This document shows, piece by piece, positions 3,475 to 64,000 of a stretch of DNA of 64,000 bases. Position 1 is the stretch's first letter. Each line of letters starts with the position of its first letter. The DNA is from Nitratireductor sp. GISD-1A_MAKvit (GTDB lineage Bacteria; Pseudomonadota; Alphaproteobacteria; Rhizobiales; Rhizobiaceae), in the NCBI RefSeq assembly GCF_040819555.1, contig NZ_CP161920.1, forward strand, positions 3,471,001-3,535,000. The letters are read 5' to 3'. A program made the position numbers and the translations under genes. The notes under the pieces were generated by a model. It worked only from the letters and a program-made list of their open reading frames with translations, had not been told where the DNA came from and made no database searches.

Positions 3475-5414
3475 AGGTTCATTCCACCTCGCTGCGCAGC
3501 AAGCTGCTGATCGCAATCGCCACCATCGCGGGTTTTGCCGTGGTGGCCATGCTCGTGGCGAACTTCACACTTGGCAGTGTCGGCAATGCCATCTCCCGAC
3601 TGGCCTCAGACAACCTCAGGACGGCGGCCGCAAGTGCCAGGCTCGCCGAAATCGGCCAGGCCATTCGCGTCGACGTACCGATGCTCGGCAACGCACGCAC
3701 CCGGTTCGAGCGGGAAGCGGCACTGAGCCGGCTGGAAAATCATTTCGCCCGCCTTCATCATCTGTTGGAAGCAGATGTCGGGGAACATGCATTCTCACAG
3801 CTGGGTCAGCTCTTGCGTGAAGTGGAGGCCAATGTCGAGGCTCTGGACCGGAATGTTGCCGGGCGGTTTCTTCTGGCCCGGCAGCGAGCGGAAGAAACCG
3901 CCCGCCTGAACCGTCTGCATGGCGATTTCCTGCTGGAGATCGATCCATTGCTTGTTGATGCGAAGTTCAACGTGGAAGCCGCCCTGGGGGAGCCAAACAC
4001 CTCTCGCCCGCCGGATCGGACCTCGCGCGGGCTTGTCCAGCGGGAGGTTCGCCTCACCGAGGCGCTGGGGCGGCTGCATGCCAGCGCGAACCTTGCGGTC
4101 GGGATGATCCTGCGTGGCGCCAGCGAGACGGACTTCCGGCTCATCGAACAGTTGCAGACCCGCCTGGCAGAGACGATTGAAGAAGGCAACGCCAATGCCG
4201 ATCTGATTGCCGACAACGCCAGTGCGATCACGCTGCGCCAGATCTGGCAAAACATAGCCCGTCTTGCCACCGGATCCGACAGTCTGCTCGACCGCCGGCT
4301 GAGAGAAAGCGGGCTCCTGGCAGAAAGTGCCCAACTGCAGGGAATGAATGCCTCCCTGCTTGAAGAGCTTGGCACCATCGTGGCGACCACGGTGCGCGAG
4401 AGTGGCAGTCGCTCCACGCTCGCTTCGCAGGGAATCAATGACATTCTCTTCGGATGGCGCGTGTTCAACGCCATGAGCACCGCCTTGCTTCTCGCCCTTC
4501 TGCTCGGCTTTTCATTTGTTTTCGTGCGCGGCCACCTGTTCCAGCGGCTCATGAAGGTCCTGCATGCGATGGGGCGGATCGCCCGCGGCGAAACCGGCAC
4601 AAGAGTGGGCGTCTCCGGCTCCGACGAGATCGGCCTGCTGGCAGATGCGGTTCGTCAGTTCCGCGACAAGTCCGAAGCGCTCGATCAGCGCGCACGCGAG
4701 TTGCGGCAGGCCAATGTGAAACTCACATCACAGATCGAGCGGCGCAGGAAGGTGGAGACGGAACTGCGCGAAACGCAGGCGGAACTGGTGCAGGCCGCCA
4801 AGCTTGCCGCGCTCGGACAGCTCTCTGCCGGGATTGCGCATGAGTTCAACCAGCCGCTCACGGCGATGGGATCCTATACCCACAATGCGCTGCGCTATCT
4901 CGACCGTGCAGACATCGACAAGGCAAAAGAAAAACTCGCCGACATCGAACGGCTGATCAAGCGGTTGGCCAAAACCTCCAACCACCTCAAAACCTTCGCA
5001 CGACGGCCGCAGGACGTTCTGGTGCGGCACGACGTGCGGGAAGTTGTCTCAAACGCACTGGCGCTTTTCAAGGAGCGGATCGAGCGGCAGGGCATCGAGC
5101 TTGAGCTGAAGCATCCCCCCCATCCGGTTCATGTCATGACGGAACCGGCGCTGCTGGAACAGGTTCTGGTCAACCTTGTTTCCAATGCGCTCGACGCGGT
5201 CGAACCGGTTCATCCAGCCCGCCTCGTCATAAGGGTAAGCGAAACGGAAATGCTGGCGCGCATTGAAGTTGAGGACAATGGCGAGGGCCTCGCCGAGGGG
5301 CTGGACGGGAAGCTCTTCGATCCCTTCTTTACAACGAAACCGCCCGGCGAAGGTCTGGGGCTCGGCCTCTCGATCTCCTACAATGTCATTCGCGATCTGG
5401 GAGGGCCGGCTTGA
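3471..5414 (+). CDS. Membrane sensor histidine kinase, PgtB-like (frameshifted at the extreme C-terminus)
   Basis: Sensor kinase with a first membrane helix near residues 12-33, a large periplasmic helical domain, a second helix near 332-352, a HAMP linker, a coiled coil, a HisKA domain with phospho-acceptor His457 in AHEFNQPL, and an HATPase domain with the N box (NLVSNALDAV), G1 (EDNGEGL), F (FDPFFTTKP) and G2 (GEGLGLGLS). As read it stops at 5414 with GGPA, whereas the usual ending (GG, then RLDVRSRKEDG...VELFKT) continues one frame over to 5472. Removing one G from the run at 5403-5405 gives a 666-residue protein ending in an ATGA overlap with the next gene. It should phosphorylate the sigma54 activator encoded downstream. 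Confidence 0.88.
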   Translation: MKVHSTSLRSKLLIAIATIAGFAVVAMLVANFTLGSVGNAISRLASDNLRTAAASARLAEIGQAIRVDVPMLGNARTRFEREAALSRLENHFARLHHLLEADVGEHAFSQLGQLLREVEANVEALDRNVAGRFLLARQRAEETARLNRLHGDFLLEIDPLLVDAKFNVEAALGEPNTSRPPDRTSRGLVQREVRLTEALGRLHASANLAVGMILRGASETDFRLIEQLQTRLAETIEEGNANADLIADNASAITLRQIWQNIARLATGSDSLLDRRLRESGLLAESAQLQGMNASLLEELGTIVATTVRESGSRSTLASQGINDILFGWRVFNAMSTALLLALLLGFSFVFVRGHLFQRLMKVLHAMGRIARGETGTRVGVSGSDEIGLLADAVRQFRDKSEALDQRARELRQANVKLTSQIERRRKVETELRETQAELVQAAKLAALGQLSAGIAHEFNQPLTAMGSYTHNALRYLDRADIDKAKEKLADIERLIKRLAKTSNHLKTFARRPQDVLVRHDVREVVSNALALFKERIERQGIELELKHPPHPVHVMTEPALLEQVLVNLVSNALDAVEPVHPARLVIRVSETEMLARIEVEDNGEGLAEGLDGKLFDPFFTTKPPGEGLGLGLSISYNVIRDLGGPA

Positions 5415-5472
5415 TGTGAGAAGCCGAAAGGAAGATGGAGTGATCGCAACCGTGGAGCTGTTCAAGACATGA
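5403..5472 (+). other. Out-of-frame C-terminal tail of the PgtB-like kinase (single-base frameshift)
   Basis: The G run at 5403-5405 is followed by CCGG. With one G removed the kinase continues as GGRLDVRSRKEDG and ends at 5472, so its stop overlaps the ATG of the response regulator at 5469. The preserved tail and the restored overlap argue that the shift is recent or a sequencing error. Confidence 0.85.
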
Positions 5473-6830
5473 AGTCGATACCCGTCATTCTGGTGGACGA
5501 CGAGCCCGACATAAGAGACGCATGGGCCGAAACACTCGCGCTTGAGGTCTATGAGCCCTTTGTTTTCTCTGATGGAAATGAGGCATTGAAGGCGCTCAAT
5601 CGCGACTGGCCGGGCATCGTCGTCACCGATCTGAGAATGCCCGGCATGAACGGAACCGCACTTCTTGAAGCAGTTCGCGAGATTGACCGCGACATCCCGG
5701 TCATCATCATCACGGGCCATGGCGATGTGCCCATGGCCGTTTCGGCCGTGCGCAGCGGAGCCTATGATTTCATCGAGAAGCCGGTGGAGCCTGACGTGCT
5801 GCTGGCGGCGGTGGAGCGAGCCGCCCGGATGCGGCAGCTCGTTTTGCAGAACCGAGCGCTGAAAAGCGGCGCAGGCGAGCGCTACGCGCTGGAAAAGCAC
5901 CTTATTGGCAACAGTGAAGCCATCCGGCTTCTGCGCAAGCGCATTGCAGCCATCGCGCTCGCCGATGTGAACACGGTCATCTATGGCGAAACCGGCTCCG
6001 GCAAGGAAGTCGTGGCAACGGCGCTTCATGAGCTTGGCCAGCGGCGCGAAGGTCCGTTCGTGGCACTCAATTGCGGCGCCCTCCCCGATACTCTGATCGC
6101 CAGCGAACTTTTTGGCCATGAGCCCGGCGCCTTCACCGGTGCGGACCGCCGGCGCATCGGCAGGCTGGAACAGGCAAGCGGTGGCACGCTGTTTCTCGAC
6201 GAAATCGAAAGCATGCCCCTTGCCCATCAGACCCAGCTCCTGCGCGCGCTCCAGTCGCAGACCATCACGCGGCTGGGCGGCAGGGACGAAATCGGGATCG
6301 ATGTCCGGGTCGTCGCGGCAGCCAAGAAGGACCTGGAGGCAGCCTCCGAGGAAGGCTCGTTCCGTGCCGATCTTTACTATCGCATCGCCGTTGCAACGCT
6401 CTCCATTCCGCCATTGCGCAAACGGCCCGAAGACGTGCCATTGCTCTTCATGCACTATGCGCAACACGCCGCCAGGCGTGTCCAGATGGATTTTGTGGAG
6501 CCCGATCACAACTATCTGGACGCGCTGCGCAACCGGCCATGGAAGGGCAATGTGCGCGAACTGATCAATCTGGCCGAACGGTATGCTCTCGGCATTGATG
6601 GCGAAGCGCGCAGCTTGGAGGCCGATCAGCTCTCGGACGGTCTTGCCGAACAGATGGACACGTTCGAGAAACGTGTGCTGGCGGCAGCATTGCGCAAAAC
6701 GGGGGGACAGGTTCAGCGGGCCGCTGACCTTCTCCGCATCCCCCGCAAGAAACTCTATCTGCGCATGCAGCGCCATGGGCTTTCCCGCGAGGAATTTCTT
6801 TCGAAGGACCGCGTCAAAAGCGACACGTGA
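5469..6830 (+). CDS. Sigma54-dependent response regulator, PgtA/NtrC-DctD type
   Basis: A 453-residue bacterial enhancer-binding protein. Receiver domain: acidic pair DD at 10-11, phospho-acceptor Asp54 in [12 protein letters not shown], and the conserved Lys in [11 protein letters not shown]+ domain: Walker A GETGSGKE near 173-180, GAFTGA near 220-225 (the loop that contacts sigma54), Walker [11 protein letters not shown]. The C-terminus has a Fis-type helix-turn-helix ([22 protein letters not shown]). The ATG overlaps the intended kinase stop. A perfect palindrome and a consensus -24/-12 promoter follow directly downstream, so the importer operon at 7002 is the probable target. Confidence 0.93.
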
Positions 6831-6838
6831 ATTGGAAG

Positions 6839-6860
6839 AATGGGTCAGAAATGACCCATT
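6839..6860. promoter_or_regulatory. Perfect palindrome, candidate enhancer site for the sigma54 activator
   Basis: Arms AATGGGTCA (6839-6847) and TGACCCATT (6852-6860) are perfect reverse complements around the 4-nt spacer GAAA. The site lies 8 nt after the activator stop codon and about 75-100 nt upstream of the -24 element, a normal distance for an enhancer-binding protein site. There is no T run after it, so a terminator is less likely. Confidence 0.72.
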
Positions 6861-6934
6861 TCATACCGAACCAGGTAACGCTTTTTCCTATTTATTACAA
6901 CACCTTGCAGATAATCCTCGCCAGAACCGCAAAC

Positions 6935-6949
6935 TGGCACGCCGGTTGC
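6935..6949 (+). promoter_or_regulatory. Sigma54 (-24/-12) promoter of the importer operon
   Basis: TGGCACG, four bases, then TTGC (followed by TT) matches the sigma54 consensus TGGCACG-N4-TTGCW at every defined position, with GG (6936-6937) and GC (6948-6949) 12 nt apart. It lies about 50 nt before the ATG of the binding-protein gene at 7002 and directly after a gene for a GAFTGA-containing activator. Confidence 0.88.
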
Positions 6950-7001
6950 TTCCTTGTTGGAGCGATGAAAAAGATCGCGGTAAATTTCTGGGAGGAATTT
7001 T

Positions 7002-8357: not shown

Positions 8358-8461
8358 GAGCACTGCCGCCCGCCGGGACAAGCGCAGCGTGAGCAGCGCT
8401 CCCTGACGCCGGATCCCGGCGGCCGGCCATTCAAGACTTCCCGTTCCAACGGAGCATATCC

Positions 8462-10189: not shown

Positions 10190-10190
10190 G

Positions 10191-11306: not shown

Positions 11307-12007
11307 TGACATGTTTGCCGGCGCATCGCACACGCACGCCGCAATGCAAGACACATACCCGCCGATCCTGCTCATTCGCCACGGAGAAACACAGTGGAAC
11401 CGACAGGGGCCGGCTTCAGGGGCGAATGGACGCGCCCCTGACACTCAATGGCACACGGCAATGTCTTGCCGTCGCCACGGCAGTCGAGGCGCATCTTCGT
11501 TCCCTGCCCCTTGATGCACGCTTCTGGGTCAGTCCACTCGGGCGAGCCCGGCAGACGGCTTCCATTCTGGCGGATTGCTGGAACCTCGATTTCGGGCGTT
11601 TCGCCGAGGCGCCTGAGATCGTCGAGCGCGCCTATGGGCACTGGGAGGGAAGCACGCTCAGCGAAGTGAAGGCGGAGCGCCCTCAGGAGTTCGAGGCCCA
11701 TTACGTCGACCCCTGGGGCTACCGGGTGCCGGGCGGCGAAAGCAAGGATGAGCTCTTCGCGCGGATAAAGGGCTGGCTTGATGGCCTGGACCGCGGTTAT
11801 GCGCATGTGGTCGTGACCCATAGCGGCTGCTTTCGGGCTCTACGCGCCCTATACACGGGGGCAACGCGCGCCGTGATCGAAGCCTATCGCGAGCCGCAGA
11901 CCACGGCCTTTCTGCTAAGGGCCGAGGAGGAGACCGAGATTGTCCCCTCCGCCGCACTTCTCACCACCTGTGGCGTGGCAGGAACCGGTCGTACCGTAGC
12001 GATATGA
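11299..12007 (+). CDS. Histidine phosphatase family protein (frameshifted)
   Basis: Phosphoglycerate-mutase-like phosphatase. The N-terminal frame gives PPILLIRHGETQWNRQG with the RHG catalytic motif. The frame must shift by one base at the G run 11406-11409 (before CCGG) to continue as RLQGRMDAPLTLNG, WVSPLGRARQTA, and VVVTHSGCFRAL with the second catalytic His. With one G removed the protein is 235 residues, normal for the family. AAGGAG 9 nt upstream supports the ATG at 11299. It is the fourth gene of the importer operon, so it may dephosphorylate the imported compound in the cytoplasm; this role is inferred from position. Confidence 0.86.
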
Positions 12008-12012: not shown

Positions 12013-12038
12013 CCGGCGGCATTCCCCAATGCCGCCGG
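12013..12038. terminator. Stem-loop terminator between convergent operons
   Basis: CCGGCGGCATT and AATGCCGCCGG form a perfect 11-bp stem around a CCCC loop. CCTTTC follows on the plus strand and TTTCTTC on the minus strand, so it could serve both the importer operon and the converging lyase gene. Confidence 0.8.
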
Positions 12039-26780: not shown

Positions 26781-27852
26781 ATGACATCCCAGGGTTCCTA
26801 CCGCGCTCAGTTACGCCTCCCGCGCATGGCAGAAAGGCCGGTGCTGGAAGCTTTGGCCGCTGCCACATCCGAAGCGGCCATCGAGGCGACGGGCACGGGC
26901 TGGCAGCTCAATCATCCGTTCGGGCTGATCGCACTGGAGCCCCAGCCATCAGACATTCAAATAAGGCTGGACGCCGAGGATCGAACCTCGCTTGCCTATC
27001 TGCAGCTTGGCATCTCCCATCGCCTGCAATCGCTCGACAAGGCCATCGCGCTCGACTGGGAGAGCGACAACACGCCGGGCATGCTGCTTCCCTATTTCCG
27101 CGAAATGAAGGTGGTTTCCGCACAGAACGTCACTCCGGGAATGAAGCGCGTGCGCCTGGCTGGCGAAGACCTCAAGCGCTTCTCGCATGACGGGCTGCAC
27201 ATTCGGCTTCTGTTTCCGCCGGAAAATGCCGCAGCCCCGTCCTGGCCGCGTCTTGGCATGAACGGCGAAGCGGTGTGGACGGATGATGACAACAGCCCGG
27301 TCGCCCGCGTCTACACCATCCGCGCAATCGATGTAGAGAGAGGCTTTGTCGATGTGGACATGGTTCTGCATGAAGGCGATGCCTGTCCCGGCGCGGGCTG
27401 GGCCGCCCGTGCCGCACCCGGCGATATCGTCGGGATGACAGGCCCCGGTGGCGGAGAGCCGCAAAAGGCACACAAGCTCATTCTACTGGGAGACGAGACC
27501 GCGCTTCCGGCCATCGGCCGCATACTGGAAGGTCTGCCCTGCGAGACCAGAGCCATCGTTCGCGTGGAAATCGCCAACGCTGCCGAGAAGCAGGAGCTGG
27601 CAACCCGCGCCGACCTCGACCTCGAATGGCTGCTGCGCGATGGCCGCGAACCCGGCACCGCCACGCTTCTTCCCGATGCAGCAAAAGCCCTGCCGATCAG
27701 CGGCAGCGATCCAGACCTCTTCGTCTGGGGCCGGGTGCGAGTTCGCCGCATTCAAGGCCATTCGCGGGCATGTGCGCAAGACGTTACGGTTGCCGAACGC
27801 GCAGCACCTCGTCGTTTCCTACTGGCGGCGTGGCGTGGCAGACGCGCATTAG
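26781..27852 (+). CDS. Siderophore-interacting protein, FAD-binding ferric reductase (frameshifted)
   Basis: NAD(P)H/FAD-dependent siderophore reductase that releases iron from imported siderophore. A ~95-residue N-terminal extension precedes the reductase, whose FAD motif is RVYTIRAID, followed by GDIVGMTGPGGG and the nucleotide-binding GDETALPAIGRILEGLP. As read, the frame breaks after DLFVW at the G run 27727-27730 (before CCGG); removing one G restores AGCEFAAFKAIRGHVRK, NAQHLVVSYWRRGVADAH and a stop at 27852, giving 356 residues. Unshifted, it runs on to 27917 with unrelated sequence. A predicted iron box lies upstream. Confidence 0.86.
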
Positions 27853-29116: not shown

Positions 29117-30635
29117 ATGAACAAGGTTGAATTCGCACGCAGTGCCAAAGTGCCTTTCGCCAAGCGCTACGACAATTTCATCGGCGGCGCATGGGTCGCG
29201 CCGAAATCCGGGCGCTATTTCGAAAACGTCTCACCCGTCACCGGACAGCCTCTGGGCGAAATCGCCCGCTCCGAGGCAGCCGATGTGGAACTGGCGCTCG
29301 ACGCCGCCCACAAGGCCAAGGATGCCTGGGGCCGCACCAGCCCGGCCGAGCGCGCCCTCATGCTCAATCGCATCGCCGACCGGATGGAAGAAAATCTCGA
29401 ACTTCTGGCGCGCGCTGAGACCTGGGACAATGGCAAGCCAATCCGTGAAACGACCGCAGCCGACCTGCCATTGGCCATCGATCACTTCCGTTACTTTGCC
29501 GGCGTTCTGCGCAGCCAGGAGGGTTCCATCTCGCAGATCGACGACGACACCGTCGCCTATCATTTCCACGAACCGCTGGGCGTGGTCGGCCAGATCATCC
29601 CGTGGAACTTCCCGCTCCTCATGGCCTGCTGGAAGCTCGCGCCCGCGCTTGCCGCCGGCAATTGCGTGGTGCTGAAGCCGGCCGAGCAGACCCCGGCCTC
29701 GATCATGCTGTGGGCCGATCTCATCGGCGACATCCTGCCGGAAGGCGTTTTGAACATCGTCAACGGTTTCGGCCTTGAAGCCGGCAAACCGCTCGCATCC
29801 TCCAACCGCATTGCCAAGATTGCCTTCACCGGCGAAACCACGACCGGCCGGCTCATCATGCAGTATGCCAGCCAGAACCTTATCCCGGTCACGCTGGAGC
29901 TTGGCGGCAAATCGCCCAACATCTTCTTCAAGGATGTCACCGCCGAGGACGACGACTTTTTCGACAAGGCGATTGAAGGCTTCGTGATGTTCGCGCTCAA
30001 CCAGGGCGAGGTCTGCACCTGCCCGAGCCGCGCCCTCATTAACGAGGCGATCTATGACGAGTTCATGGAGCGTGCGCTGAAGCGCGTCGAGCAGATCGTG
30101 CAGGGCGATCCGCTCGACCCGGCAACCATGATCGGCGCGCAGGCGTCTTCCGAGCAGCTTGAGAAGATTCTGAGCTATATCGACATCGGTAGACAGGAAG
30201 GCGCGGAAGTGCTGACCGGCGGCGAACAGGCGCATCTGCCCGGCGATCTCGCCGGCGGCTACTACGTCAAGCCGACGGTCTTCAAGGGCCACAACAGGAT
30301 GCGCGTTTTCCAGGAAGAGATTTTCGGCCCCGTCGTGTCGGTCACGACCTTCAAGGACGATGCCGAGGCCATGGAAATCGCCAATGACACGCTCTATGGC
30401 CTTGGCGCCGGTATCTGGAGCCGCGATGCCAACCGGCTCTATCGCTTTGGTCGGGGCATTCAGGCGGGCCGCGTGTGGACCAATTGCTACCACGCCTATC
30501 CGGCCCCACGCGGCCTTCGGCGGCTACAAACAGTCCGGCATCGGTCGCGAAACGCACAAGATGATGCTCGATCACTACCAGCAGACCAAGAACATGCTGG
30601 TGAGCTACAGCCCAAAGAAGCTGGGCTTCTTCTGA
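29117..30635 (+). CDS. NAD-dependent aldehyde dehydrogenase, acetaldehyde type (frameshifted)
   Basis: Aldehyde dehydrogenase of the ExaC/acetaldehyde subgroup: [32 protein letters not shown] for cofactor binding, the glutamate in LELGGKSPN, and catalytic Cys in [11 protein letters not shown]. The frame breaks after [10 protein letters not shown] at a C run (30504-30507, CCGGCCCC); dropping one base restores [21 protein letters not shown] and [12 protein letters not shown], ending at 30635 with 505 residues, the normal family length. Without the correction it runs to 30742 with unrelated sequence. Its partner DUF779 gene follows. It probably oxidises acetaldehyde or a similar short aldehyde to the acid. 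Confidence 0.9.
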
Positions 30636-31144: not shown

Positions 31145-34100
31145 TTATTCGGCAGCTTCCGAATAGGAAGACGGGAGATAGTTCAGCACCGGCCCGAGCC
31201 AGCGCTCCACCTCTGCCACATCCATGCCCTTGCGTGCGGCATAGTCTTCCACCTGATCGCGCTCGACCTTGGCAACGCCGAAATAATAGCTTTCCGGATG
31301 CGAATAATAGAGCCCTGAGACGGATGACCCCGGCCACATGGCCATGCTTTCGGTCAGTTCCACTCCAGCATTCTTCTCCGCATCGAGCAGCCTGAACAGC
31401 GTCATCTTCTCCGTGTGATCCGGCTGCGCCGGATAGCCCGGTGCCGGGCGAATGCCCGCATAGGGTTCGGCGATCAGCTCTTCGGGCGTAAAGCTCTCAT
31501 CGCCCGCATAACCCCAGAATTCCCTGCGCACCTTCTCATGCATGCGTTCGGCGAATGCTTCCGCAAACCGGTCGGCCAGCGCCTTCACGAGGATCGAGTT
31601 GTAGTCGTCATTCGCGCGCTCGAAGCGTTCGGCAATCGCCACTTCCTCAATGCCCGCTGTCACGACGAACCCGCCAATCCAGTCAGGCTTTCCGCTGTCC
31701 AGGGGCGCAACGAAATCCGACAGGGCAACATTCGGCTTGTTGCCACGCTTGGTGAGCTGCTGGCGCAGGGTAAAGAAAGAAGCGAGTTCCTCTTTCCGTG
31801 TCTCATCGGTGAAGAGACGCACATCGTCGCCCACCGCATTGGCCGGCCAGAACCCGACCACGGCACGCGGCACGAACCATTGTTCGTCGATGATCTTCTT
31901 CAGCATTGCCTGCGCGTCGGCAAAGAGCTGCCGCGCGGCCTCGCCCTGCTTCTCGTCTTCGAGAATTTTCGGGTAGCGCCCCTTCATCTCCCATGTCTGG
32001 AAGAAGGGCGTCCAGTCGATATAGCGCGCCAGTTCTTCCAGATCCCAGCTCTCAAACACTTTCGTGCCGGTGAAGCTCGGCTTGGGCGGGGTGTAACTGG
32101 CCCAGTCGATCCTGTGCGGATTGGCGCGTGCCTTTGCGATCGGCAGACGCTGCTTGTCACGCTCGGAGCGCTCATGCGCCTCCGTGACCTTGCGATACTC
32201 TTCGCGCAGTTTTTCGATGTACCCGTCGCGTGTCTCTGCCGAAAGCAGGTTCGAAACCACGCCAACCGCACGGCTCGCATCGTTTACGTGAACCGCCTGC
32301 CCGCGCTCATAGCTCGGGTGGATCTTCACCGCCGTGTGCACACGGCTGGTCGTCGCACCGCCGATCAGGAGCGGAATATCGTACCCTTCGCGTTCCATTT
32401 CGGCCGCCACATGCACCATCTCGTCAAGCGACGGGGTGATGAGACCGGAAAGCCCGATGATGTCGACTTTCTCTTCGCGCGCGGTCTCCAGAATCTTCGC
32501 CGCTGGCACCATCACGCCCAGATCGATGATCTCGTAATTGTTGCAGGCCAGAACGACGCCGACGATGTTCTTGCCGATGTCATGGACATCGCCCTTCACC
32601 GTGGCCATCAGGATCTTGCCGGCGCTCTCGCGCTCGCCGCCGCCATTGGCCCGCTTCTCCTCCTCCATATAGGGAAGAAGAAGAGCCACGGCCTGCTTCA
32701 TCACGCGCGCCGACTTCACGACCTGCGGCAGGAACATCTTGCCCGCGCCGAACAGATCGCCGACCACATTCATTCCGGCCATCAGCGGGCCTTCGATCAC
32801 ATGCAGCGGGCGCTCTGCCTTCTGCCGCGCTTCCTCGGTGTCCACGTCGATATATTCGGTGATGCCGTTGACGAGCGCATGTTCGATCCGCTTCTCGACC
32901 GGTAGCTCCCGCCAGGAGAGATCCTTCTCCTTGGCCTCGCGTCCGCCAGTGCCGCGATAGCGTTCGGCGATATCGAGCATCCGCTCCGTCGCCGTACCGC
33001 CCGCCTTCGGCTCGCGGTTCAGCACCACATCCTCGCAGGCCTCGCGCAGCTCCGGATCAATGGTGTCATAGACGGCAAGCTGGCCGGCATTGACGATGCC
33101 CATGTCCATGCCCGCCTGAATGGCGTGGTAAAGGAACACGGCATGCATCGCCTCGCGCACGGGCTCATTGCCACGGAACGAGAAGGAGAGGTTCGACACG
33201 CCGCCCGAGATATGGACATGCGGTAGGGTCTTTATGATCTCGCGCGTCGCCTCGATGAAGTCGACGCCGTAATTGTCGTGCTCTTCAATACCGGTCGCGA
33301 TCGCGAAAACATTCGGATCGAAGATGATGTCTTCCGGCGCGACACCGGCCTTTTCGGTCAGGAGCTTGTAGGCGCGGGTGCAGATTTCCACCTTGCGGGC
33401 CCTGGTGTCGGCCTGACCGGTTTCGTCGAACGCCATCACCACCATCGCCGCACCATACATGCGGCACAGTCTGGCCTGCTCCAGAAACGCTTCCTCGCCC
33501 TCCTTGAGCGAGATGGAGTTCACCACGGCCTTGCCCTGCACACATTTGAGGCCCGCTTCGATCACCTCCCATTTGGAGGAATCGATCATCACCGGCACGC
33601 GCGCAATGTCCGGCTCCGCCGCCACCAGATTGAGGAACTCGATCATCGCCTTCTTGGAGTCGATCAGGCCCTCATCCATGTTGACGTCGATGATCTGCGC
33701 CCCGCCCTCAACCTGATTGAGTGCCACGTCGAGCGCGGTCGCATAGTCGCCTGCGGTGATGAGCTTGCGGAATTTTGCAGAGCCCGTGACATTGGTGCGC
33801 TCACCCACATTGACGAAGGGAATGTCGTCGGTCAGCGTGAAAGGCTCCAGCCCCGAAAGCCGCATCTGCGGCGGACGCTCGGGGATTTCGCGCGGCGGAT
33901 GGTTCGCAACCGCATCACGGATTGCGGCAATGTGCTCGGGTGTCGAGCCGCAGCAGCCGCCAACCACATTGATCAGCCCCTCGCGCGCGAACTCCGCGAC
34001 CTGCTCGGCCATCATTTCCGGGCTTTCGTCATACTGGCCAAAGGCATTCGGCAGGCCGGCATTCGGATAGGCACAGATCAGCGTGTCGGCCACGCCGGAA

Positions 34101-34927
34101 AGCTCCGCCAGATGCGGGCGCATGGCCGCAGCACCCAGCGCACAGTTCAGACCGATCGTGACCGGCTTGGCGTGCCGTACCGAATGCCAGAAGGCCGTCG
34201 GTGTCTGGCCGGAAAGCGTGCGGCCGGAAAGATCGGTGATCGTGCCGGAGATCATCACCGGCAGGCGAATCCCACGCTCGGCAAAGATTTCTTCGCAGGC
34301 AAAGATCGCCGCCTTGGCGTTCAGCGTGTCGAAGATGGTCTCGATGAGAACCATGTCCGCGCCGCCATCGAGCAGCCCGCCCAGCTGTTCGCCATAGGCG
34401 ATGCGCAGATCGTCGAAGGTCACGGCGCGGTAGCCGGGATTGTTCACGTCCGGCGAGATGGAGGCGGTGCGGTTGGTCGGTCCGAGCGCACCAGCCACGA
34501 AGCGGCGCACGCCATCCTTCTCTTCGGCACGCTTGGCCGCCCGGCGGGCAAGCCGCGCGCCATCGCGGTTAAGCTCATAGACCATCTCCTCCATGCCGTA
34601 ATCGGCCTGTGCGATGGTCGTGGAGGAGAAGGTGTTTGTTTCGAGAATGTCCGCACCCGCCATCGCGTAGCGGAAATGCTCTTCCTCGATCGCCTTGGGC
34701 TGCGTCAGGTTGAGGAGGTCGTTATTGCCCTGCTGGTGACAGGCGCAACCCACGAAGCGGTCACCGCGAAAGTGATCCTCGTCGAAGCCCAGCCCCTGGA
34801 TCTGCGTGCCCATCGCACCGTCAAGGATGAGAATGCGCTCGCGCGCAGCCTTGTGCAGCGCGGCGAAGATTTCCGATCCATCCGGCTTTTCGCCAACGGG
34901 ACCAAACAGTTCATCGATAGACGACAT
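31145..34927 (-). CDS. metH: Cobalamin-dependent methionine synthase
   Basis: A complete 1260-residue MetH that transfers a methyl group from 5-methyltetrahydrofolate to homocysteine through cobalamin. Domains in order: homocysteine-binding barrel with zinc Cys pair in [13 protein letters not shown] (~330), pterin-binding barrel ([20 protein letters not shown], ~375-620), B12 cap and B12 domain with the axial His motif [14 protein letters not shown], and the SAM-binding reactivation domain ([35 protein letters not shown]). No truncation is seen. A perfect 20-bp palindrome lies 42 nt upstream. It stands alone on the minus strand between unrelated operons. Confidence 0.97.
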
Positions 34928-38191: not shown

Positions 38192-38828
38192 CTAAGAGAG
38201 TTCCGCGATCAACTCTTCCGTCGTCACCTGCCGGCAATAGCCCTTGATGGTGCGCAGCGAATTGTCATGCCGCTCCTGGCTGTAGGTCAGGCAGGCATCC
38301 GTCACCTGCGTCACCAGATAGCCCAGATCGCAGGCATCGCGAATGGCGCTCTCCACGCATTGATCGGTGATCAGCCCGCAGATGATGAGCTGCTTCACAC
38401 CCAGATTGCGCAGAATGTAGTCGATATGGGTGGAAACGAACACGGAGGAAGAGGATTTCGGCAAAACGATCTCGTCTTCACCCGGCGCGATCTCGTCGAT
38501 CACCTTGCCGTCCCACGAGCCCTTGGGCACATTGAAGCCCGTGATCTTGTAATCCAGGCTGCGGTCACGTCCGTCGAGCGTCAGGCTTTCGATGGTGGTG
38601 TACATCACCTCCACGCCAGCCTTGCGGCAGGCTGCCTGCAACTTCTGCATGCGCGGGATCACCTCGCCCTCCAGCCGGTCGAAATACCAGCCATATTTCT
38701 CGTTCAGTGTCTTCTCGTCGAGATCTGCAAACTCCGCGCCGTTCTTCTTGGCGCTGAAATTCTGCACATCCACATAGAGGATCGCGGCCTGGGGCCGGCT
38801 CGATGGGAACGTTGCGCGTGAGTTCCAT
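38192..38828 (-). CDS. Isochorismatase-like cysteine hydrolase (frameshifted)
   Basis: Cysteine hydrolase of the isochorismatase-like superfamily, ~211 residues after correction. The first strand AAILYVDVQNFSAKKNGAEF holds the catalytic Asp; VLPKSSSSVFVSTHIDYILRNLGVKQLIICGLITDQCVESAIRDA carries the Lys and catalytic Cys. The correct N-terminus (MELTRNVPIEPAQAAILYVDVQN) requires removal of one base in the run at 38792-38795 (TGGGGCCGG on the plus strand); as read, the ATG frame is lost. Family members hydrolyse amides such as N-carbamoylsarcosine or nicotinamide. It lies 2 nt after the upstream amidohydrolase and belongs to the same operon. Confidence 0.84.
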
Positions 38829-40503: not shown

Positions 40504-41220
40504 TAACTGGCCCCCAGATAGGCAGCTTGCAGCGTGTCGGAATTGCGCAGTTCGCCGGCCGTGCCGGAAGCTGCGATGCGGCCGCTGGCCATCACGTATC
40601 CGCGATCCGCGACTTCGAGCGCCATCGACACGTTCTGTTCGACGACCATCAACGTCACGCCCTGCTTGCGCAGCACGGTGATCAACTCGAAAACCTGCTC
40701 GACGATCTTCGGCGCGAGCCCCAGCGACGGCTCGTCAAGCAGGAGAAGACGCGGATTGCTCATCAACGCGCGGCCAACGGCCAGCATCTGCTGCTGGCCG
40801 CCCGAAAGCGTTCCAGCAAACTGATCACGGCGCTCGCGCAGAATCGGAAACAGGTCGAAAATTCGGTCAAAAGCCGTTTTCACCTCGGCCTTGTCCCGCA
40901 TGGAATAGGCGCCCATGAGCAGATTTTCCTGCACGCTGAGCGTACCGAAGACGCGCCGGCCCCTCCGGCGACAGCGTCATCCCCAGAGAAGCAAAGCGCT
41001 CGGGCGCGCTGCCGGTCACGTCCTGCCCCTTGAAGGTGATCTTGCCTGCGCTGGCCGGTGCCAGACCGACCAGCGCATTGAGCGTCGAGGACTTGCCCGC
41101 GCCATTGGCGCCCAGAAGCGCGATGATTTCGCCTTCACGCACGTCCAGATCGATACCGCGCACCGCGTTGACGGCACCGTATTGAACCTGGAGGGACTGG
41201 ACTGTCAGTAGCGCAGACAC
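40503..41220 (-). CDS. livF: Branched-chain-type amino acid ABC ATPase (frameshifted)
   Basis: LivF-type ATPase. The first part has Walker A GANGAGKSS and ends normally at LGMTLSPEG; the second has LSGGQQQMLAVGRAL, LLLLDEPSLGLAP and MVVEQN in another frame. Removing one base from the C run at 40960-40963 (CCGGCCCC on the plus strand) joins them as SPEGRRVFGTLSVQENLLMGAY, the usual LivF Q-loop/helical junction, and gives 238 residues, the family's normal size. As written, the gene would yield two fragments. Without it the importer would lack one of its two ATPase domains, since LivG is fused to LivM. Confidence 0.9.
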
Positions 41221-46491: not shown

Positions 46492-47809
46492 ATGACCGGC
46501 CTCTATGAACGCGAAAGCCGCAGCGTTTCCACGCTCGCACATCTGCGCTTTTTCCCGCAGGCGGTAACGGGCGGTAAGGGATCGATGCTGCGCGGCGATG
46601 ACGGGCGCGACCTACTCGATTTCGCCGCCTCCTGGGGAGCGGCCAGCCTCGGTCACGGGCACCCTGCCCTCGCCGAGGCCGTCAATCGCGCGCTGACAAC
46701 CCAAGCGGGTGCAAGCTACCTTTCCACGGCCAACGAGCCCAGCGTGCGCCTTGCCGAAAAGCTGCTTTCGCTGGTGCCGGAGCGCGCCGCAGGCCGCGTC
46801 TGGTTCGGCCATTCGGGCTCGGACGCGAACGAAACCGTCGCCCGCGCAGTGGTGGCGGCAACCGGGCGCCCGCGCATCATCTCCTTCAAGGGCGCCTATC
46901 ACGGCGGCACGGTCGGGTCAGTGGCGATTTCCGGCCACCCCGCACAGGGTGGCATCGACAAGGGCCTCCGGCCTCAGCCTCGTCCCCTATCCCGATTCCT
47001 ATGCCTCAGGCAGCCCGGAAGCCGCATCGAAGGCAGCGCTCGCTCATATCGAACAACTCTTCGCCACCGCCGTCTCACCGGAAGAAGTTGCGGCCTTCTT
47101 CATCGAGCCGATCCAGTCGGATGGCGGAATGCTGGTGCCGCCGCCCGGCTATTTCAGGGAGATCGAGAGGCTCTGCCGCAGATATGGCATTCTGCTCGTC
47201 TGCGACGAGGTGAAGGTTGGGCTCGCGCGCACCGGACGCCTCCACGCCTTCGAGCATAGCGGCATCGAGCCCGACATCGTCGTGTTCGGCAAGGGGCTTG
47301 GCGGCGGGCTGCCCATATCGGCGGTTGTCGGTCCCGAAAGCATCATGAACCACGCCTCGACCTTTTCCTTCCAGACCCTGCACGGCAATCCGGTCTGCGC
47401 GTCTGCGGGGCTCGCCGTGCTGGAAACAATCGAGCGCGAAGATCTGATCACCCACGCCGCAAGAGTGGGTGAGACGATGCTTTCCGCTCTGCGTGATCTC
47501 GGGGAGAAACACCCTCTCATCGGAAATGTGCGCGGCCACGGGCTTGCCATCGGCGTCGAGCTGGTGAGCGACCGCGATGCCCGCACGCCTGCCATCGAGC
47601 AGACGGCACTCACCGTCTACCGCGCCTTTCAGCTCGGCCTCGTCATCTACTATGTGGGCCTTAATTCCAACGTGCTGGAATTCACCCCGCCGCTGATCAT
47701 GAGCGAGAGCGAAGCCCTGCGGGGGATTGCCATTCTCGATCAGGCTTTGAGCGACGTGGAAGCCGGCAGGGTGGACCCGCAATTGCTGGAGCGTTTTGCC
47801 GGCTGGTAA
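46492..47809 (+). CDS. Class III PLP-dependent aminotransferase (frameshifted)
   Basis: Aminotransferase of the 4-aminobutyrate/omega-amino-acid group, 438 residues after correction. N-terminal part: LDFAASWGAASLGHGHPALAEAVN, FGHSGSDANETVARAVVAATGRPRIISFKGAYHGGT. At the G run 46962-46964 (AGGGCC) one base must be removed to join SGHPAQGGIDK to ASGLSLVPYPDSY. The rest carries FIEPIQSDGGMLVPPPGYF, VCDEVKVGLARTGR and the PLP-lysine segment VFGKGLGGGLPIS. With the upstream ligase it resembles gamma-glutamyl-amine pathways, but other amine routes fit as well. Confidence 0.88.
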
Positions 47810-51934: not shown

Positions 51935-52004
51935 GTGCGGTCCTGTATGTTGGAAGCGCCCCGGGTTTCACCCCCCGATGAAACCCGGGGCCTGCGAACG
52001 CGGA

Positions 52005-53942: not shown

Positions 53943-54908
53943 CGTTTCAAATTCCGATAAAGCAGCAGCATGAAGGCAATGCCGCCGGTAAACTCGATTA
54001 TGACGCTCAGCGCCGTGTCGAAACCGAACACGCGCTCCATCACGGTCTGGCCACCCACCAGCGCGATGATGGCGATCAGCGTTGCCGCCGGCAGCGTGTA
54101 TTTGTGCCGGTCCGTGCCCACCGCCTGATAGGCAAGGCTTGCCACCAGAAGCCCGAAAAAGGTGACCGGCCCCCACCAGCGCGGTCGAGACGGAAACCAG
54201 CACAGCGATCACCGCAAACAGCATCATCACCACACGCTGGTAATCGATGCCCAGATTGATCGCCGCATCGCGGCCCAGCATCAGCACGTCGAGCTTTGCC
54301 AGCAGCCGGTGGCTCACCCAGGCGGTCACCAGCACGATCACCGCGGAGACCGCCAGCAAATGCGTATCGATCGTGTTGAAGCTGGCGAAAAGCATGTCCT
54401 GAAGCGCGATGAACTCGTTGGGGTCGAGAATGCGCTGCATCATGTGCGAGAGGCTGCGGAAGAACACGCCGAACACGAGACCCGCCAGCACCACCAGATG
54501 CAGGCTGCGCCGGCTGGAAAGGAACAGCCAGTAAAAGAGCGCCATGGACATGCCCACCATGAGCACCATCTCAAGAACGAAGCGCAGACGGATGTCGACA
54601 TTGGCGAGATCGCGTGTCCCGAGAACAAAGACAAGTGCCGTCTGGAGCGCCACGTAAAGCGAATCGAACCCCATCACGGCCGGTGTCAGAATCCGGTTCT
54701 GGGTGATCGTCTGAAACAGAATGGTCGCCGTCGCCACCGCATAGGCAACCAGAATGAGACCCAGAAGCTTTCCACCGCGAAACGGCAGCACGAAGTCCCA
54801 GTTGCCTTTGGCCCCAATGGTCATGAAGGCCATCATTGCCGCGATTGCAGCCAGTCCGAGACCAGCAAGCGCAAGGCGAGGCCTTTGCCGTGAAGAAGTT
54901 TTAGCCAA
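53939..54908 (-). CDS. Iron-siderophore ABC permease, second subunit (frameshifted)
   Basis: FecCD-type permease of ~322 residues after correction. Helices include LALAGLGLAAIAAMMAFMTIGA, LLGLILVAYAVATATILFQTITQNRILTPAVMGFDSLYVALQTALVF, and GLVFGVFFRSLSHMMQRILDPNEF. The reading frame is lost at the C run 54170-54174 (CCGGCCCCC on the plus strand); dropping one base gives VSTALVGPVTFFGLLVASLAYQA and restores ...ALSVIIEFTGGIAFMLLLYRNLKR ending at 53939. Without correction the frame fuses into the ATPase gene. The TTG start at 54908 overlaps the first permease stop; the exact start is uncertain. Confidence 0.86.
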
Positions 54909-56941: not shown

Positions 56942-56956
56942 TGATCAATGCAATCA
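56942..56956. promoter_or_regulatory. TGA-N9-TCA iron box between siderophore operon and DUF2218
   Basis: TGA (56942-56944) and TCA (56954-56956) flank nine bases and are preceded by AAATA, like the box at 26738. Its place between two divergent iron-linked transcription units supports RirA-type control. Confidence 0.55.
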
Positions 56957-57017
56957 ACTTATCTGTATCAACAAGCGATCACACAGTTTCGGCAACGTTT
57001 TCCCGGAGACCTTTCCC

Positions 57018-57353
57018 ATGCTGCAATCCAGAGCCATCGTGACCACGGAAAACGCTTCCAAATATCTGCAGCAGCTTTGCAAGCACTTTGCTCACAAGGT
57101 AAGCGTCGACTTCGACACCTCCCGGGGCAAGGTCGATTTCCCGTTCGGCGACTGCATCATGCGTGCAGACGAAGCGGCCCTCACCATCGAGTGCAGCGCC
57201 AAAACGGATGAAGAACTTGCCCGCGCCCAGAACGTGATCGACGATCATCTGACGCGCTTCGCGTGGCGCGAAAAGCCGGAAATCTCCTGGCAGGGCCTGA
57301 GCGGCAGGACAGACTTGATAGAAAACCGAAAGGCGGCGGAACGCGAGCATTGA
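57018..57353 (+). CDS. DUF2218 protein linked to siderophore uptake
   Basis: A 111-residue soluble protein of the DUF2218 family (MLQSRAIVTTENASKYLQQLCKHFAHKVSVDFDTSRGKVDFPFGDCIMRAD, LTIECSAKTDEELARAQNVIDDHLTRFAWREKPEISW). The family is often found near siderophore genes; its function is unknown. CGGAG lies about 10 nt before the ATG at 57018. It is divergent from the siderophore importer and shares its control region. Its 3' end is part of the terminator stem. Confidence 0.85.
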   Translation: MLQSRAIVTTENASKYLQQLCKHFAHKVSVDFDTSRGKVDFPFGDCIMRADEAALTIECSAKTDEELARAQNVIDDHLTRFAWREKPEISWQGLSGRTDLIENRKAAEREH

Positions 57354-57367
57354 ATTCCGCCGCCTTT
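57329..57367. terminator. Bidirectional stem-loop terminator between DUF2218 and the RND pump gene
   Basis: AAAGGCGGCGGAA (57329-57341) and TTCCGCCGCCTTT (57355-57367) pair as a perfect 13-bp stem with a 13-nt loop. T tracts flank both sides, so it can end transcription from both converging genes. The left arm lies inside the DUF2218 coding end. Confidence 0.85.
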
Positions 57368-57369
57368 CG

Positions 57370-60513: not shown

Positions 60514-60525
60514 GTTGGCCCCCGG

Positions 60526-61617
60526 TCAGTCGGCGCTGGCGGACTGGATTTCGGCAAGCCTGACACGCTCGCCTTCCTGCAGTTTCTGAACACCGAGCGT
60601 GACGATCTTCTCGCCATCCTCGAGCCCCTCTGCAATGATCGCATTGCGCGACTGATAGGCCTCGACGACGACCGGCCGGCGTTTGAGTTCGTTCGAGGGG
60701 GGATCGACTACGAACACGACCGGACCCCGGCCATCGTCGAGAACCGCCGTCATCGGTATGCGAGCGACCGGTGACGGATCTCCTTTGGTGAGTGAAACGG
60801 TTGCCGTCATGCCAAGCCGGACGCTCTCGTCCGCCTCCGGCACGGAGAAGCGCACGGGATAGGTCCGGCTGGTGCCGTTGGCTTCCGGCGCGATCTCGCG
60901 CACCTTTGCGGCATAAACGCCGCTTCCGGCCCACAGCGACACTTGCGCGCTGGAACCTTCCAGATCGGCGAGCCGGCTTTCGGGGATCGATACCTCGACC
61001 TCCTTCTCATCGAGACGCGCCACGCTCACCACCATCTGACCGGGCGAAACGACCTGCCCTGTCTCCACGCCCACGGCGCTCACCACGCCGTCGGCGGAGG
61101 CCGTCAGTTCGGCATAGCCCATCTGGTTTTCGGCGAGGGCGACAGCGCGTTCGGCCTGCTCGAAGCGCGAGCGCGTTTCGTCAACCGCCAGCGCCTGTGC
61201 ATCGAGCGCGGCTTGGGTCACATGCCCGCGCTTGAAGAGTTTGCGCGCTCGTTCCAGATCGGTTTCAGCCTTTGCGAGACTTGCGCGCGCTGCCGTGAGG
61301 GCCGCCCGCTGCTGCTCAAGCTGCAGGTTGAGATCGACCGGATCGAGCCGCGCCAGAACCTCTCCGGCCTTGACACCATCTCCCACATCGACATGCCGTT
61401 CAGCCACCTTGCCGCCGACACGAAACGCCTCGGCCACTTCCGTGCGCGGCACGATGGTGCCCGTGTAGGTGCGTGTTTCGGCGAGCGGAGAAAGCCGCAC
61501 CGTCGCCACCCGCACGACCGGGTCAGGGCGCTCGGCCACTTCTTCGTCCTGACAGGCCGCGAGTGCAAGCGCCATGGCGCCCAGAAGCATGATCCGTTTC
61601 ATCGTCGCAAGCGGCAT
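60526..61617 (-). CDS. Efflux RND transporter periplasmic adaptor (membrane fusion lipoprotein)
   Basis: A 363-residue adaptor. MLLGAMALALAACQDEE is a lipoprotein signal with the lipobox Cys. The hairpin region (LNLQLEQQRAALTAARASLAKAETDLERARKLFKRGHVTQAALDAQALAVDETRSRFEQAERAVALAENQ) forms a coiled coil, flanked by lipoyl halves (GGKVAERHVDVGDGVKAGEVLARLD, ASADGVVSAVGVETGQVVSPGQM). AGGA lies 7-8 nt before ATG 61617; ATG 61602 is possible. It precedes the RND pump gene by 12 nt. One predicted repressor site lies in its promoter region. Confidence 0.93.
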   Translation of the reverse strand: MPLATMKRIMLLGAMALALAACQDEEVAERPDPVVRVATVRLSPLAETRTYTGTIVPRTEVAEAFRVGGKVAERHVDVGDGVKAGEVLARLDPVDLNLQLEQQRAALTAARASLAKAETDLERARKLFKRGHVTQAALDAQALAVDETRSRFEQAERAVALAENQMGYAELTASADGVVSAVGVETGQVVSPGQMVVSVARLDEKEVEVSIPESRLADLEGSSAQVSLWAGSGVYAAKVREIAPEANGTSRTYPVRFSVPEADESVRLGMTATVSLTKGDPSPVARIPMTAVLDDGRGPVVFVVDPPSNELKRRPVVVEAYQSRNAIIAEGLEDGEKIVTLGVQKLQEGERVRLAEIQSASAD

Positions 61618-61643
61618 GGGCCCGTCCTTGTAAACATTGTTAA

Positions 61644-61667
61644 CTGATGATTCTCAATATTCGTCAT
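61644..61667. promoter_or_regulatory. Predicted TetR operator upstream of the RND operon
   Basis: CTGATGATT, six bases, ATTCGTCAT: 20 of 24 positions match the perfect inverted repeat upstream of the tetR gene at 62334-62357. It lies 27-50 nt before the adaptor start, where a repressor would block transcription. Confidence 0.72.
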
Positions 61668-61708
61668 TTTTCAGGCGCGCGAAATGGCCACCACGCCCCC
61701 GCAGAAGC

Positions 61709-62326
61709 CTATTCGCGCTTGCCCAGTGCCTTCAGGATAAAACGCAGCTGCTCGCGCAGCCCTTCCTCGGTGTCTTCGTCGTGTTGTATGCAATGTTCGA
61801 TCAGAAGCGGATGAAAGAACGGCACAAAGGCCGTCTTCACGCAGCGCGCCGCCTCTGCAGGGTCATCGGTATGAAAATCACCTGCGTCAACACCCTCGCG
61901 GATGATCCCCTCGACAATCGTTGTCACGCGCTCGATATGCGCCTTGATGATCGACCAGTTCTCCTGCATCGCAGCGGCAACCATGTCATGGGCGCGCTTT
62001 TCTTTGATCAGGGTCGCCTTATGATGTTCATGGATCGCCGTCAGAAGACGGGTCAGTTTCTCCGGCGCGGGCGCGTTGCTCCGCGCGATCGAGAAGGCGA
62101 TCTCCGCCACCTCTTCAACGATCCGCCCGCAAATGCACTCGTTGATCGCTCCCTTGGAAGGGAAGAAGCGGTAAATATTGGCTGGACTCATCCCCAGCTC
62201 CGCCGCAATATCCGCAACGGAAGTCTTCTGGTATCCGATGCTGCGGAAAAAGCCCTCCGCGACTTCGAGAATGCGGCAGCGGGTTTCTTCCGGATCGGTG
62301 CGTGTGCGTGTAGCCTGTTTCATCAT
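61709..62326 (-). CDS. TetR-family repressor of the RND efflux operon
   Basis: A 205-residue TetR regulator. The N-terminal HTH is CRILEVAEGFFRSIGYQKTSVADIAAELGMSPANIYRFFPSKGAINECI. The C-terminal ligand domain is helical. It sits directly upstream of the pump operon on the same strand, and near-identical operator copies lie before both, so it likely represses its own gene and the pump. The ligand is probably a substrate of the pump. Confidence 0.93.
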   Translation of the reverse strand: MMKQATRTRTDPEETRCRILEVAEGFFRSIGYQKTSVADIAAELGMSPANIYRFFPSKGAINECICGRIVEEVAEIAFSIARSNAPAPEKLTRLLTAIHEHHKATLIKEKRAHDMVAAAMQENWSIIKAHIERVTTIVEGIIREGVDAGDFHTDDPAEAARCVKTAFVPFFHPLLIEHCIQHDEDTEEGLREQLRFILKALGKRE

Positions 62327-62333
62327 TTAATTC

Positions 62334-62357
62334 CTGACGATTTTCAATAATCGTCAG
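62334..62357. promoter_or_regulatory. Predicted TetR operator upstream of the tetR gene
   Basis: CTGACGATT (62334-62342) and AATCGTCAG (62349-62357) form a perfect 9-bp inverted repeat with a 6-nt centre TTCAAT, 8 nt upstream of the TetR ATG, matching the site at 61644. Confidence 0.78.
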
Positions 62358-62405
62358 TCCTTACCGAGTCAACAGACAATCGCTCCGTCACAGAGCAGCC
62401 CTCGC

Positions 62406-64000
62406 CTATCGCGCATCCTCAAGGATCATCGACGCCGCCTTTTCCGCAATCATCAGCGTTGGCGAGTTCGTGTTTCCCGATGTGATGGCAGGCATCACAG
62501 ACGCATCGGCAATCCGCAAGCCTTTCAGACCACGCATTCGAAGCCGTGGATCGACCACCGCCTCCTCGTCCCCGCCCATCCGGCAGGTGCCAACGGGATG
62601 GAAGATCGTGGTGCCGATCTGGCCCGCCGCCTCCACCAGCTCTTCCTCGCTCTGGTGATCCGCACCCGGCTTGAACTCTTCGGGCCGATAGCGCTGCAGC
62701 GCCGGCTGCGCAACAATACGGCGCGTCAAACGGATCGCATCGACAGCCACCTGCCGGTCGCTCTCGGTCGCAAGATAGTTGGGCCGGATGGCCGGCTGCG
62801 TGTGAAAATCCTTCGAGGTGAGATGCACCGAGCCACGGCTGTCTGGCCGCAGGTTGCACACGCTCGCCGTGAACGCCGGGAAGGGATGAACCGGCTCTCC
62901 AAACCTGTCCAGCGAGAGCGGCTGCACATGATATTGCAGATTGGCCGTTTCGCGCGTTTCATCGGAACGTGTGAAAAGGCCAAGCTGGCTCGGGGCCATC
63001 GACATCGGCCCCCGATCGTTTCAGAAGATACTCCAGAGCAATCGCCGCCTTGCCAGTCAGCCGGCTCGCCTGCTCATTGAGCGTGCGAATGCCCGAAACC
63101 TTGTAGGCGCAGCGCAATTGCAGATGGTCCTGCAGGTTTTCGCCCACCGAGTTTCGCTCGAATACCACGGGGATGCCCGCCGCCTGCAACACGTCCCCAC
63201 GCCCGATGCCCGATAATTCGAGAATATGCGGCGAGCCTATCGCGCCCGCCGATAAAACGACCTCTGCCCGGCAATGCGCCTCGCGCGCTGCCCCGTTCTG
63301 CTCATAGGCAACACCCGTTACACGCCCCTGTTCAACAATGAGCCTGCGCACATGCGCGCCCGTCTCAACCCGTAAATTCTGCCTGTGCCGCACCGGCTTC
63401 AGAAAGGCTTTTGAAGCATTCCAGCGTATGCCGCCGCGCTGGTTCACGCGAAAATAGGAAGAGCCCTCATTGTCACCGCGATTGAAATCGTCGACCTTCG
63501 GGATGCCAAGCGCTTCTGCCGCATCCTGAAACGCATCCAGAATGTCCCAGCGAACCCGCGCCTCTTCCACGCGCCACTCGCCGCCGGCCCCATGCATATC
63601 ATCGGCGCCCCGGTAATAATCTTCGGGCTTCTTGAAGAAGGGTAAGACGTCGTCCCAGGCCCAGCCCGTGCAGCCCATCTGCCGCCAGCGATCGTAATCG
63701 CGCGCCTGCCCGCGCATGTAGATCATGCCGTTGATGGAGGAACAGCCACCCAGCACCTTGCCGCGCGGATAGGCAAGCGAGCGCCCCCCCAGCCCGGCCT
63801 CGCTTTCGGTGGTAAAGCACCAGTCGGTGCGCGGGTTGGAGATGCAGTAGAGATAACCGACCGGAATATGCACCCAGGCATAATTGTCCCGTCCTCCCGC
63901 CTCCAGAAGCAGCACCGAGACCTTCGGGTCGGCGGACAGGCGGTTGGCCAGAAGGCAACCCGCCGTCCCCGCGCCGACGACAATATAGTCGAATGTCTCT
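62406..64000 (-). CDS. GMC-family oxidoreductase, choline dehydrogenase-like (5' end outside window, frameshifted)
   Basis: FAD-dependent GMC oxidoreductase. The visible N-terminus FDYIVVGAGTAGCLLANRLSADPKVSVLLLEAGG carries the FAD motif; YPRGKVLGGCSSINGMIYMRGQARDYD and LSAGAIGSPHILELSGIG are the GMC signatures; the C-terminus GTTIFHPVGTCRMGGDEEAVVDPRLRMRGLKGLRIADASVMPAITSGNTNSPTLMIAEKAA has the catalytic His and Asn regions. The frame is broken after LLKRSG at the C run 63009-63013; dropping one base restores PMSMAPSQLGLF. The start codon lies beyond the window. Members oxidise choline or other alcohols; the substrate is not assigned. Confidence 0.9.

Follow-up and report, generated by a model that had tools for sequence, protein, structure and literature searches.

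The stretch of DNA analyzed here, a window of 64,000 nucleotides (G000:C2:3471001-3535000) from the genome of Nitratireductor sp. GISD-1A_MAKvit (4.1 Mb, two contigs), contains nine genes whose reading frames are each broken by one additional G in a run of Gs before CC (Table 1); such an extra G before CC is referred to as a scar. A preliminary description had listed these one-base shifts, and the sequence of the window agrees with it at all nine sites and also in the continuation GGGCCGG, which is present at seven of them (the exceptions are 46962 with GGGCCTC and 63009 with GGGCCGA). Altogether, 171 GGGCC/GGCCC sites and 564 GGCC sites are present in the window, and about 5% of the former and 1.6% of the latter are affected, showing that the effect is partial, as had been proposed. 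Position 29335, which had been cited as a GGGCC site read in frame, does not have this sequence; the nearest GGGCC is located at 29329.

Table 1. Scars in the window. Genes were assigned with Pfam; "event" marks a frameshift called by the hidden Markov model described in the text, and the relatives are the same-genus genomes covering the site
Scar	Coordinates	Strand	Sequence at the scar	Length of G run	Gene	Position of +1 in relative alignment	Relatives without extra base	Remarks
1	5403..5409	+	GGGCCGG	3	near end of histidine kinase gene (HisKA/HATPase/HAMP)	5402	1/1 (G002)	
2	11406..11413	+	GGGGCCGG	4	near start of histidine-phosphatase-superfamily gene (PF00300)	11406	1/1 (G002)	
3	27727..27734	+	GGGGCCGG	4	near end of siderophore-interacting FAD-binding protein gene (PF08021/PF04954)	27727	3/3	event after retraining
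4	30500..30507	-	GGGGCCGG (read on -)	4	near end of + strand aldehyde dehydrogenase gene (PF00171)	30504	3/3	event after retraining
5	38791..38798	+	GGGGCCGG (read on +)	4	start of - strand isochorismatase-family gene (PF00857)	38791	6/6	aligned to L244
6	40956..40963	-	GGGGCCGG (read on -)	4	within - strand ABC-transporter ATPase gene (fragment, PF00005 74-136 of 137)	40959	7/7	event
7	46962..46966	+	GGGCC	3	in class-III aminotransferase gene (PF00202)	46959	7/7	event
8	54166..54174	-	GGGGGCCGG (read on -)	5	in - strand FecCD-type permease gene (PF01032)	54174	7/8	event
9	63007..63013	-	GGGGGCC (read on -)	5	in - strand GMC oxidoreductase gene (PF00732)	63006	6/8	

The window was aligned to nine genomes of the same genus without choosing sites beforehand, and the alignment was made in pieces because gene order among these relatives is patchy. 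At least one relative covered 61,271 of the 64,000 positions and at least two covered 51,361. With a filter of 60% of the covering relatives, 20 insertions or deletions (indels) that are specific to this genome and not divisible by three were retained, and nine of them are the reported sites, all being one base longer here. None of the other 11 lies in a GGGCC run (for a one-base deletion at 52000, the GGGCC at 51988 is 8-12 bp away); six of them are supported by one relative and four are located between open reading frames. Frameshifts shared with related strains would have pointed to genuine mutations, and at nearly all sites the extra base is missing from the relatives that cover them. A count of G-run lengths, which had been suggested as a check, did show a slight excess at GGGCC (ratio of runs of three to runs of two 0.169, compared to 0.112-0.153 in four relatives), but raw run spectra are too weak when taken alone and were rejected as proof. 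Elsewhere in the window, a protein of 1260 amino acids is encoded at 31148-34927, and its closest matches among the 80 named loci listed are from Mesorhizobium (82-86%).

The remainder of the genome was sampled with a homology-free, frameshift-aware coding hidden Markov model trained on this genome, which was applied to the window and 40 evenly spaced stretches of 20 kb (864 kb of 4.1 Mb). The model called 88 internal insertions (and one more at a gene edge) and 32 deletions. Of the 88 internal insertions, 60 had GGGCC/GGCCC at a distance of up to 40 bp, while 15.2 were expected from 22,689 coding windows, and this sequence was also the most enriched 5-mer at insertions; deletions did not show such an excess (7/32, about 5.5 expected). 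The excess was stable when the frameshift penalty was changed (55/68 with a stricter and 70/117 with a looser penalty) and was also found when the second batch (400 kb) was taken by itself (27/38, 6.2 expected). When positions were shifted by 100-500 bp, the motif was found at 13-18 of 88-89 positions, compared to 60/89 at the events themselves. The nine hits in the window are thus not a product of chance. Three of the nine window sites were detected at first and five after retraining, the misses being mostly near gene ends, and with the standard penalty the background in genomes without a DndC match (see below) was 3-7 insertions per 100 kb, so that the evidence is the excess of events and not each single event. 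Errors that are bound to one short motif, occur genome-wide in the sample and are partial are a feature of this assembly. When each event was given the nearest GGG+CC within 40 bp, a procedure that includes some misassignments, about 2-10% of the G3-5CC coding sites were assigned a scar, and the base following GGCC in 62 scars was G in 42, T in 16 and C in four.

Usable coding pieces are present on both sides of 59 of the 60 motif-linked insertion events. For 20 of the longer events one piece each was named; five of these had no family at the strict limit, and the genes split at the others include rpoB, rpoC, polA, mutS and groEL. The rpoB gene consists of three adjacent pieces in different reading frames (profile positions 3-644, 643-1075 and 1072-1238), and no other rpoB copy was detected elsewhere in the genome at E 0.001. 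A cell without a whole RNA polymerase gene is implausible, and since the only rpoB found is split twice, the additional bases are taken to be assembly errors. By the same logic this applies to scar 7, where the aminotransferase profile runs on from one frame (positions 11-140 of 403) into the next (153-403). To judge from these sequence comparisons, the extra G bases are very likely a consensus artefact of the assembly, and the nine genes would be intact in the organism; nine independent pseudogenes had already been considered improbable, and the split rpoB and the relatives without the extra base speak against them as well. The assembly into two contigs suggests that native long reads were used.

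A methylase recognizing GGCC had been suspected as the source of a base modification, yet no cytosine-5 methylase domain (PF00145) was found in the genome; a locus for DNA phosphorothioation (dnd) was found instead. A HaeIII-type GGCC cytosine-5 methyltransferase was therefore rejected as a candidate; PF00145 is present in 3/10 same-genus genomes and in 10/14 controls. Two PF01555 methylases are encoded in the genome, one of 377 amino acids with a RAMA domain, which we take to be CcrM-like, and an orphan of 256 amino acids; we know of no GGCC target for either of them, and their rejection is less firm. The orphan, a DNA methylase of the N6/N4 type, is located at L154:1420-2190.

DndC was sought because GGCC is a known phosphorothioate motif, as stated in a previous report (PMC9521924). 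The genome encodes a DndC with 689.9 bits (cut-off 290.4), the only one above the cut-off among ten same-genus genomes; a second genome of the genus has a weaker match below it. Counting this genome, matches above the cut-off were found in 5/397 genomes of the order and 11/398 of the phylum. Profile searches located dndA, dndB, dndC, dndD and dndE at one locus (L151), with DndA at 510.6 bits (cut-off 480), DndB at 384.6 bits over 250 of 355 positions (cut-off 328) and DndE at 129 bits (cut-off 71.85). The dndD gene is present in two pieces covering profile positions 1-132 and 477-649 of 650, each of which is by itself under the cut-off of 245.85. The dndA gene is divergent from dndB, dndC, dndD and dndE, which are followed by a gene for a putative methyltransferase (TIGR04096), and on the other side of the locus PbeA-like, weakly PbeC-like and Orf5-like genes are located. 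Like dndD, dndB is split. The model placed six insertions in L151. At 12023 (dndB), 12367 (dndC, at its start) and 14273 (dndD) the motif is no more than 40 bp away, while the other three (8314, 15311 and 16243) lack it at this distance. A further GGGCC is located in dndD at about 15389.

The specificity loop of this DndC reads GYPAP-RPK-FRW, with the same residues as given for Streptomyces lividans. According to the published rule, an R-x-K/R loop defines the GpsGCC type, in which sulfur is placed between the G residues of the motif (PMC12193691), and the R-P-K loop found here agrees with this rule. The match is informative because it could have failed: several other DndC loci carry SRR, SKR, RPL, TRW, TRF, QQT, TQS or TNS at this position. 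Taken together, the relatives without the extra base, the genome-wide signature, the split rpoB and the dnd locus favor the systematic over-call of G linked to a DNA modification that had been proposed for the window.

A search of plasmid records with the DndC protein revealed a second genome with the same scar, that of the actinobacterium Arthrobacter sp. StoSoilB13, whose DndC is 67% identical and has the R-P-K loop. In its first 191 kb the motif was present at 7 of 16 insertions (3.6 expected), and in 491 kb at 36 of 55 (13.1 expected, P 7e-11), with GGGCC/GGCCC being the top 5-mer; deletions had the motif in 6 of 26 cases (6.2 expected). The later 300 kb alone yielded 18 of 34 (8.2 expected, P 0.0003) and 150 kb of a second replicon 7 of 12 (2.9 expected), and the pooled count is 52 of 83 (19.9 expected). 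The two genomes share their site preferences: the hit rate of runs of at least four Gs is about threefold that of runs of three, an A before the run and a G at +4 are preferred, and an A after GGCC was found at 0/404 eligible sites here and at 1/442 in StoSoilB13. A dnd-free control assembly from the same laboratory was sought for StoSoilB13, and none was found. The two StoSoilB13 records labelled as plasmids (NZ_AP024648.1 and NZ_AP024649.1) are 1.35 and 1.0 Mb long, and the table lists no feature for the first and one for the second. A region carrying ftsH, tilS and folE in a different Arthrobacter record is matched by one of the two, and they may be pieces of the chromosome. The StoSoilB13 TIGR04096 gene (L190:24095-25332) looks split as well, one open frame covering positions 227-477 of the 478 in the profile.

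Genomes without a DndC match served as controls (absence was based on the same-genus search for G003, G001, G009, G002 and G007, and on the order and phylum search at E 1e-100 for G044 and G145). The motif was present at 1/8 insertions in G003, 2/6 in G001, 0/2 in G009, 0/2 in G002, 0/6 in G007, 0/4 in G044 and 3/7 in G145 (1.2 expected in the latter). Running the model of this genome on stretches of G001, G009 and G002 resulted in 45 events, of which 29 were deletions and 7/45 had the motif at a distance of up to 30 bp, compared to 29/60 in this genome and 1/13 in G003, all of them raw counts.

Further dnd-bearing records were sampled in the same way. Among those with the R-P-K loop, insertions had the motif in 1/5 cases in G1030, 2/5 in G227, 3/5 in G634, 0/2 in a plasmid of Agrobacterium larrymoorei and 2/4 in Massilia H6 (P 0.08; its first 29 kb alone 2/3, P 0.03); G176, the sixth record with this loop, lay outside the sample. 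G1030 consists of four contigs, whereas G227 and G634 are draft assemblies with about 200 and 50. The sparsely annotated genome of Nonomuraea gerenzanensis, with a K-P-K loop, showed the motif at 2/20 insertions (6.6 expected). In the same stretches (L195, L321-L323) 5/7 deletions were located at GGGCC/GGCCC (2.3 expected, P 0.04), perhaps by chance or through the opposite error at the same motif, the events being few. Streptomyces and Kitasatospora plasmids with dndC, which have about 70% GC and were sampled outside the comparison of DndC loop types, had the motif at 2/4, 2/3, 1/2, 3/3 and 1/1 insertions, which are too few events for a judgement. In five such plasmids (Streptomyces L314, L315, L316 and L318; Kitasatospora L317) dndC was found without annotated dndB, dndD or dndE within about 20 kb, in a gene table that is incomplete.

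We consider it likely that partial GpsGCC phosphorothioation by the dnd system makes the long-read consensus over-call G. In this scheme DndABCDE would exchange an oxygen of the DNA backbone for sulfur between the G residues of GGCC, at only a fraction of these sites, and the phosphorothioate would disturb the signal of a sequencer reading native long molecules. Most reads would then over-call the G run by one base, the extra base would be kept in polishing, and the sites winning the consensus would be those that are modified more frequently and have a neighboring G. We infer three of its elements, namely the phosphorothioation of GGCC in this organism, the use of long native reads, and the sulfur itself rather than a companion mark as the cause. 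Earlier work is consistent with the scheme: only a small share of sites is phosphorothioated (PMC9069010, PMC9521924), and in plasmid and Salmonella DNA phosphorothioates alter both the nanopore signal and the base errors in a context-dependent manner (PMC9069010). The scar density in the window, about 141 per Mb, is below the 471 GpsG per million nucleotides given for S. lividans (PMC6186775), which would be expected if scars appear only where modification is more frequent and a G is adjacent.

Several observations weigh against this explanation. StoSoilB13 was found via DndC, so that its dnd genes are not an independent coincidence; the lack of any annotation under its DndC match was part of the reason for choosing it, and more of it was sampled once the first result (7/16 against 3.6 expected) had looked suggestive. 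With the loosest setting a weak excess was seen in G145 (5/11, P 0.026), and the base-caller could be the source of the flank preference. The five other R-P-K records do not show a significant scar, which would fit short-read or polished data. These last two points suit a platform artefact without any modification, in which one version of a basecaller or polisher over-calls G in the GGGCC[G/T] of high-GC genomes, the strong rule for the next base is one of signal context and dnd is coincidental. We judge this unlikely, as such an artefact has to be reconciled with the small fraction of G3-5CC coding sites scarred here, with the lack of a significant excess in six of the seven genomes without a DndC match (G145 being marginal) and with Nonomuraea, where insertions at the motif stay below expectation, though its deletions do not. 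In addition, dnd is rare among the relatives, yet a GGCC-type system is present in this scarred genome.

The TIGR04096 gene is located close downstream of dndE in both scarred genomes, and the effects of sulfur and of a methyl mark are therefore not separated by them, which also counts against the proposed role of sulfur. Another mark at GGCC, set by TIGR04096 or by an unrecognized N4-cytosine methylase, alone or on top of the sulfur, could draw further on the second N6/N4 methylase beside the one with the RAMA domain. It appears improbable to us, given that PF00145 was not found, that the DndC loop alone predicts GGCC and that, to our knowledge, no GGCC specificity is established for TIGR04096; the Massilia H6 plasmid has an annotated phosphorothioate-associated methyltransferase and no significant scar, which is neutral if this record was polished. 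That the extra Gs are real, arising in a hypermutable strain or by phosphorothioate-induced frameshift mutagenesis and leaving many pseudogenes, is hardly credible: mutS is among the split genes and loss of mismatch repair raises run-length mutations, but the excess is restricted to insertions and centered on GGGCC/GGCCC, rpoC and groEL are split in addition to the sole rpoB found, and at almost all sites the base is absent from the relatives covering them.

If phosphorothioation is the cause, the deposited sequence would record a DNA modification as false mutations. We lean towards the broader view that long-read assemblies with a GGCC-type DndC hold an imprint of phosphorothioation, in which +G at GGGCC[G/T] marks a subset of the modified sites. 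From the assembly alone one could then read the motif, the flanks it prefers and, in part, the location of the sites, and scars, including those in the dnd genes themselves, would flag dnd systems that were at work in the cells taken for sequencing. Few strains have a known phosphorothioate motif, and special chemistry is required to determine it; public assemblies would become a source of directly testable predictions of such motifs. Pseudogene counts, completeness scores and claims of gene loss are possibly wrong for dnd genomes sequenced with long reads only, even for rpoB. No account of phosphorothioate frameshift scars in assemblies was found among the literature titles and openings of abstracts listed, a search that left subscription journals and bioRxiv mostly outside its scope.

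Modpolish (PMC10687267) and Homopolish (PMC8011154) deal with comparable errors, i.e., motif-bound consensus errors of native reads that are linked to a strain-specific modification system and are visible in comparison to relatives. For Modpolish, most of the errors reported are mismatches, at GCAGC and GCTGG, and indels are not the main source, in contrast to the gene-breaking +1 at a suspected phosphorothioate in GGCC described here. Wadley 2022 (PMC9069010) likewise describes phosphorothioates that alter signal and base errors in native reads at a small share of sites; that work concerned GAAC/GTTC and read-level errors with an amplified control, whereas here GGCC is concerned and the errors are kept in the deposited sequence. 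The GpsGCC dnd systems of S. lividans and Pseudomonas fluorescens Pf0-1 have, according to earlier reports (PMC12193691, PMC6186775, PMC7461809), the R-x-K/R loop and the GGCC motif, as is the case here, where the dnd neighbors are Pbe-like and Orf5-like and the GpsGCC modification is predicted from genes alone. A plasmid with the GGCC-type dnd genes of Pf0-1 has been described (PMC7461809). For S. lividans the form CGGCC or GGCCG is given (PMC6186775), and G is also the most common base after GGCC in the scars (42/62); unlike the GGCCG form, 16/62 scars have T and 4/62 have C at this position. In our reading, consensus errors bound to a modification are already known, and what is new is a gene-breaking insertion at a phosphorothioate motif that is recognizable from the assembly alone.

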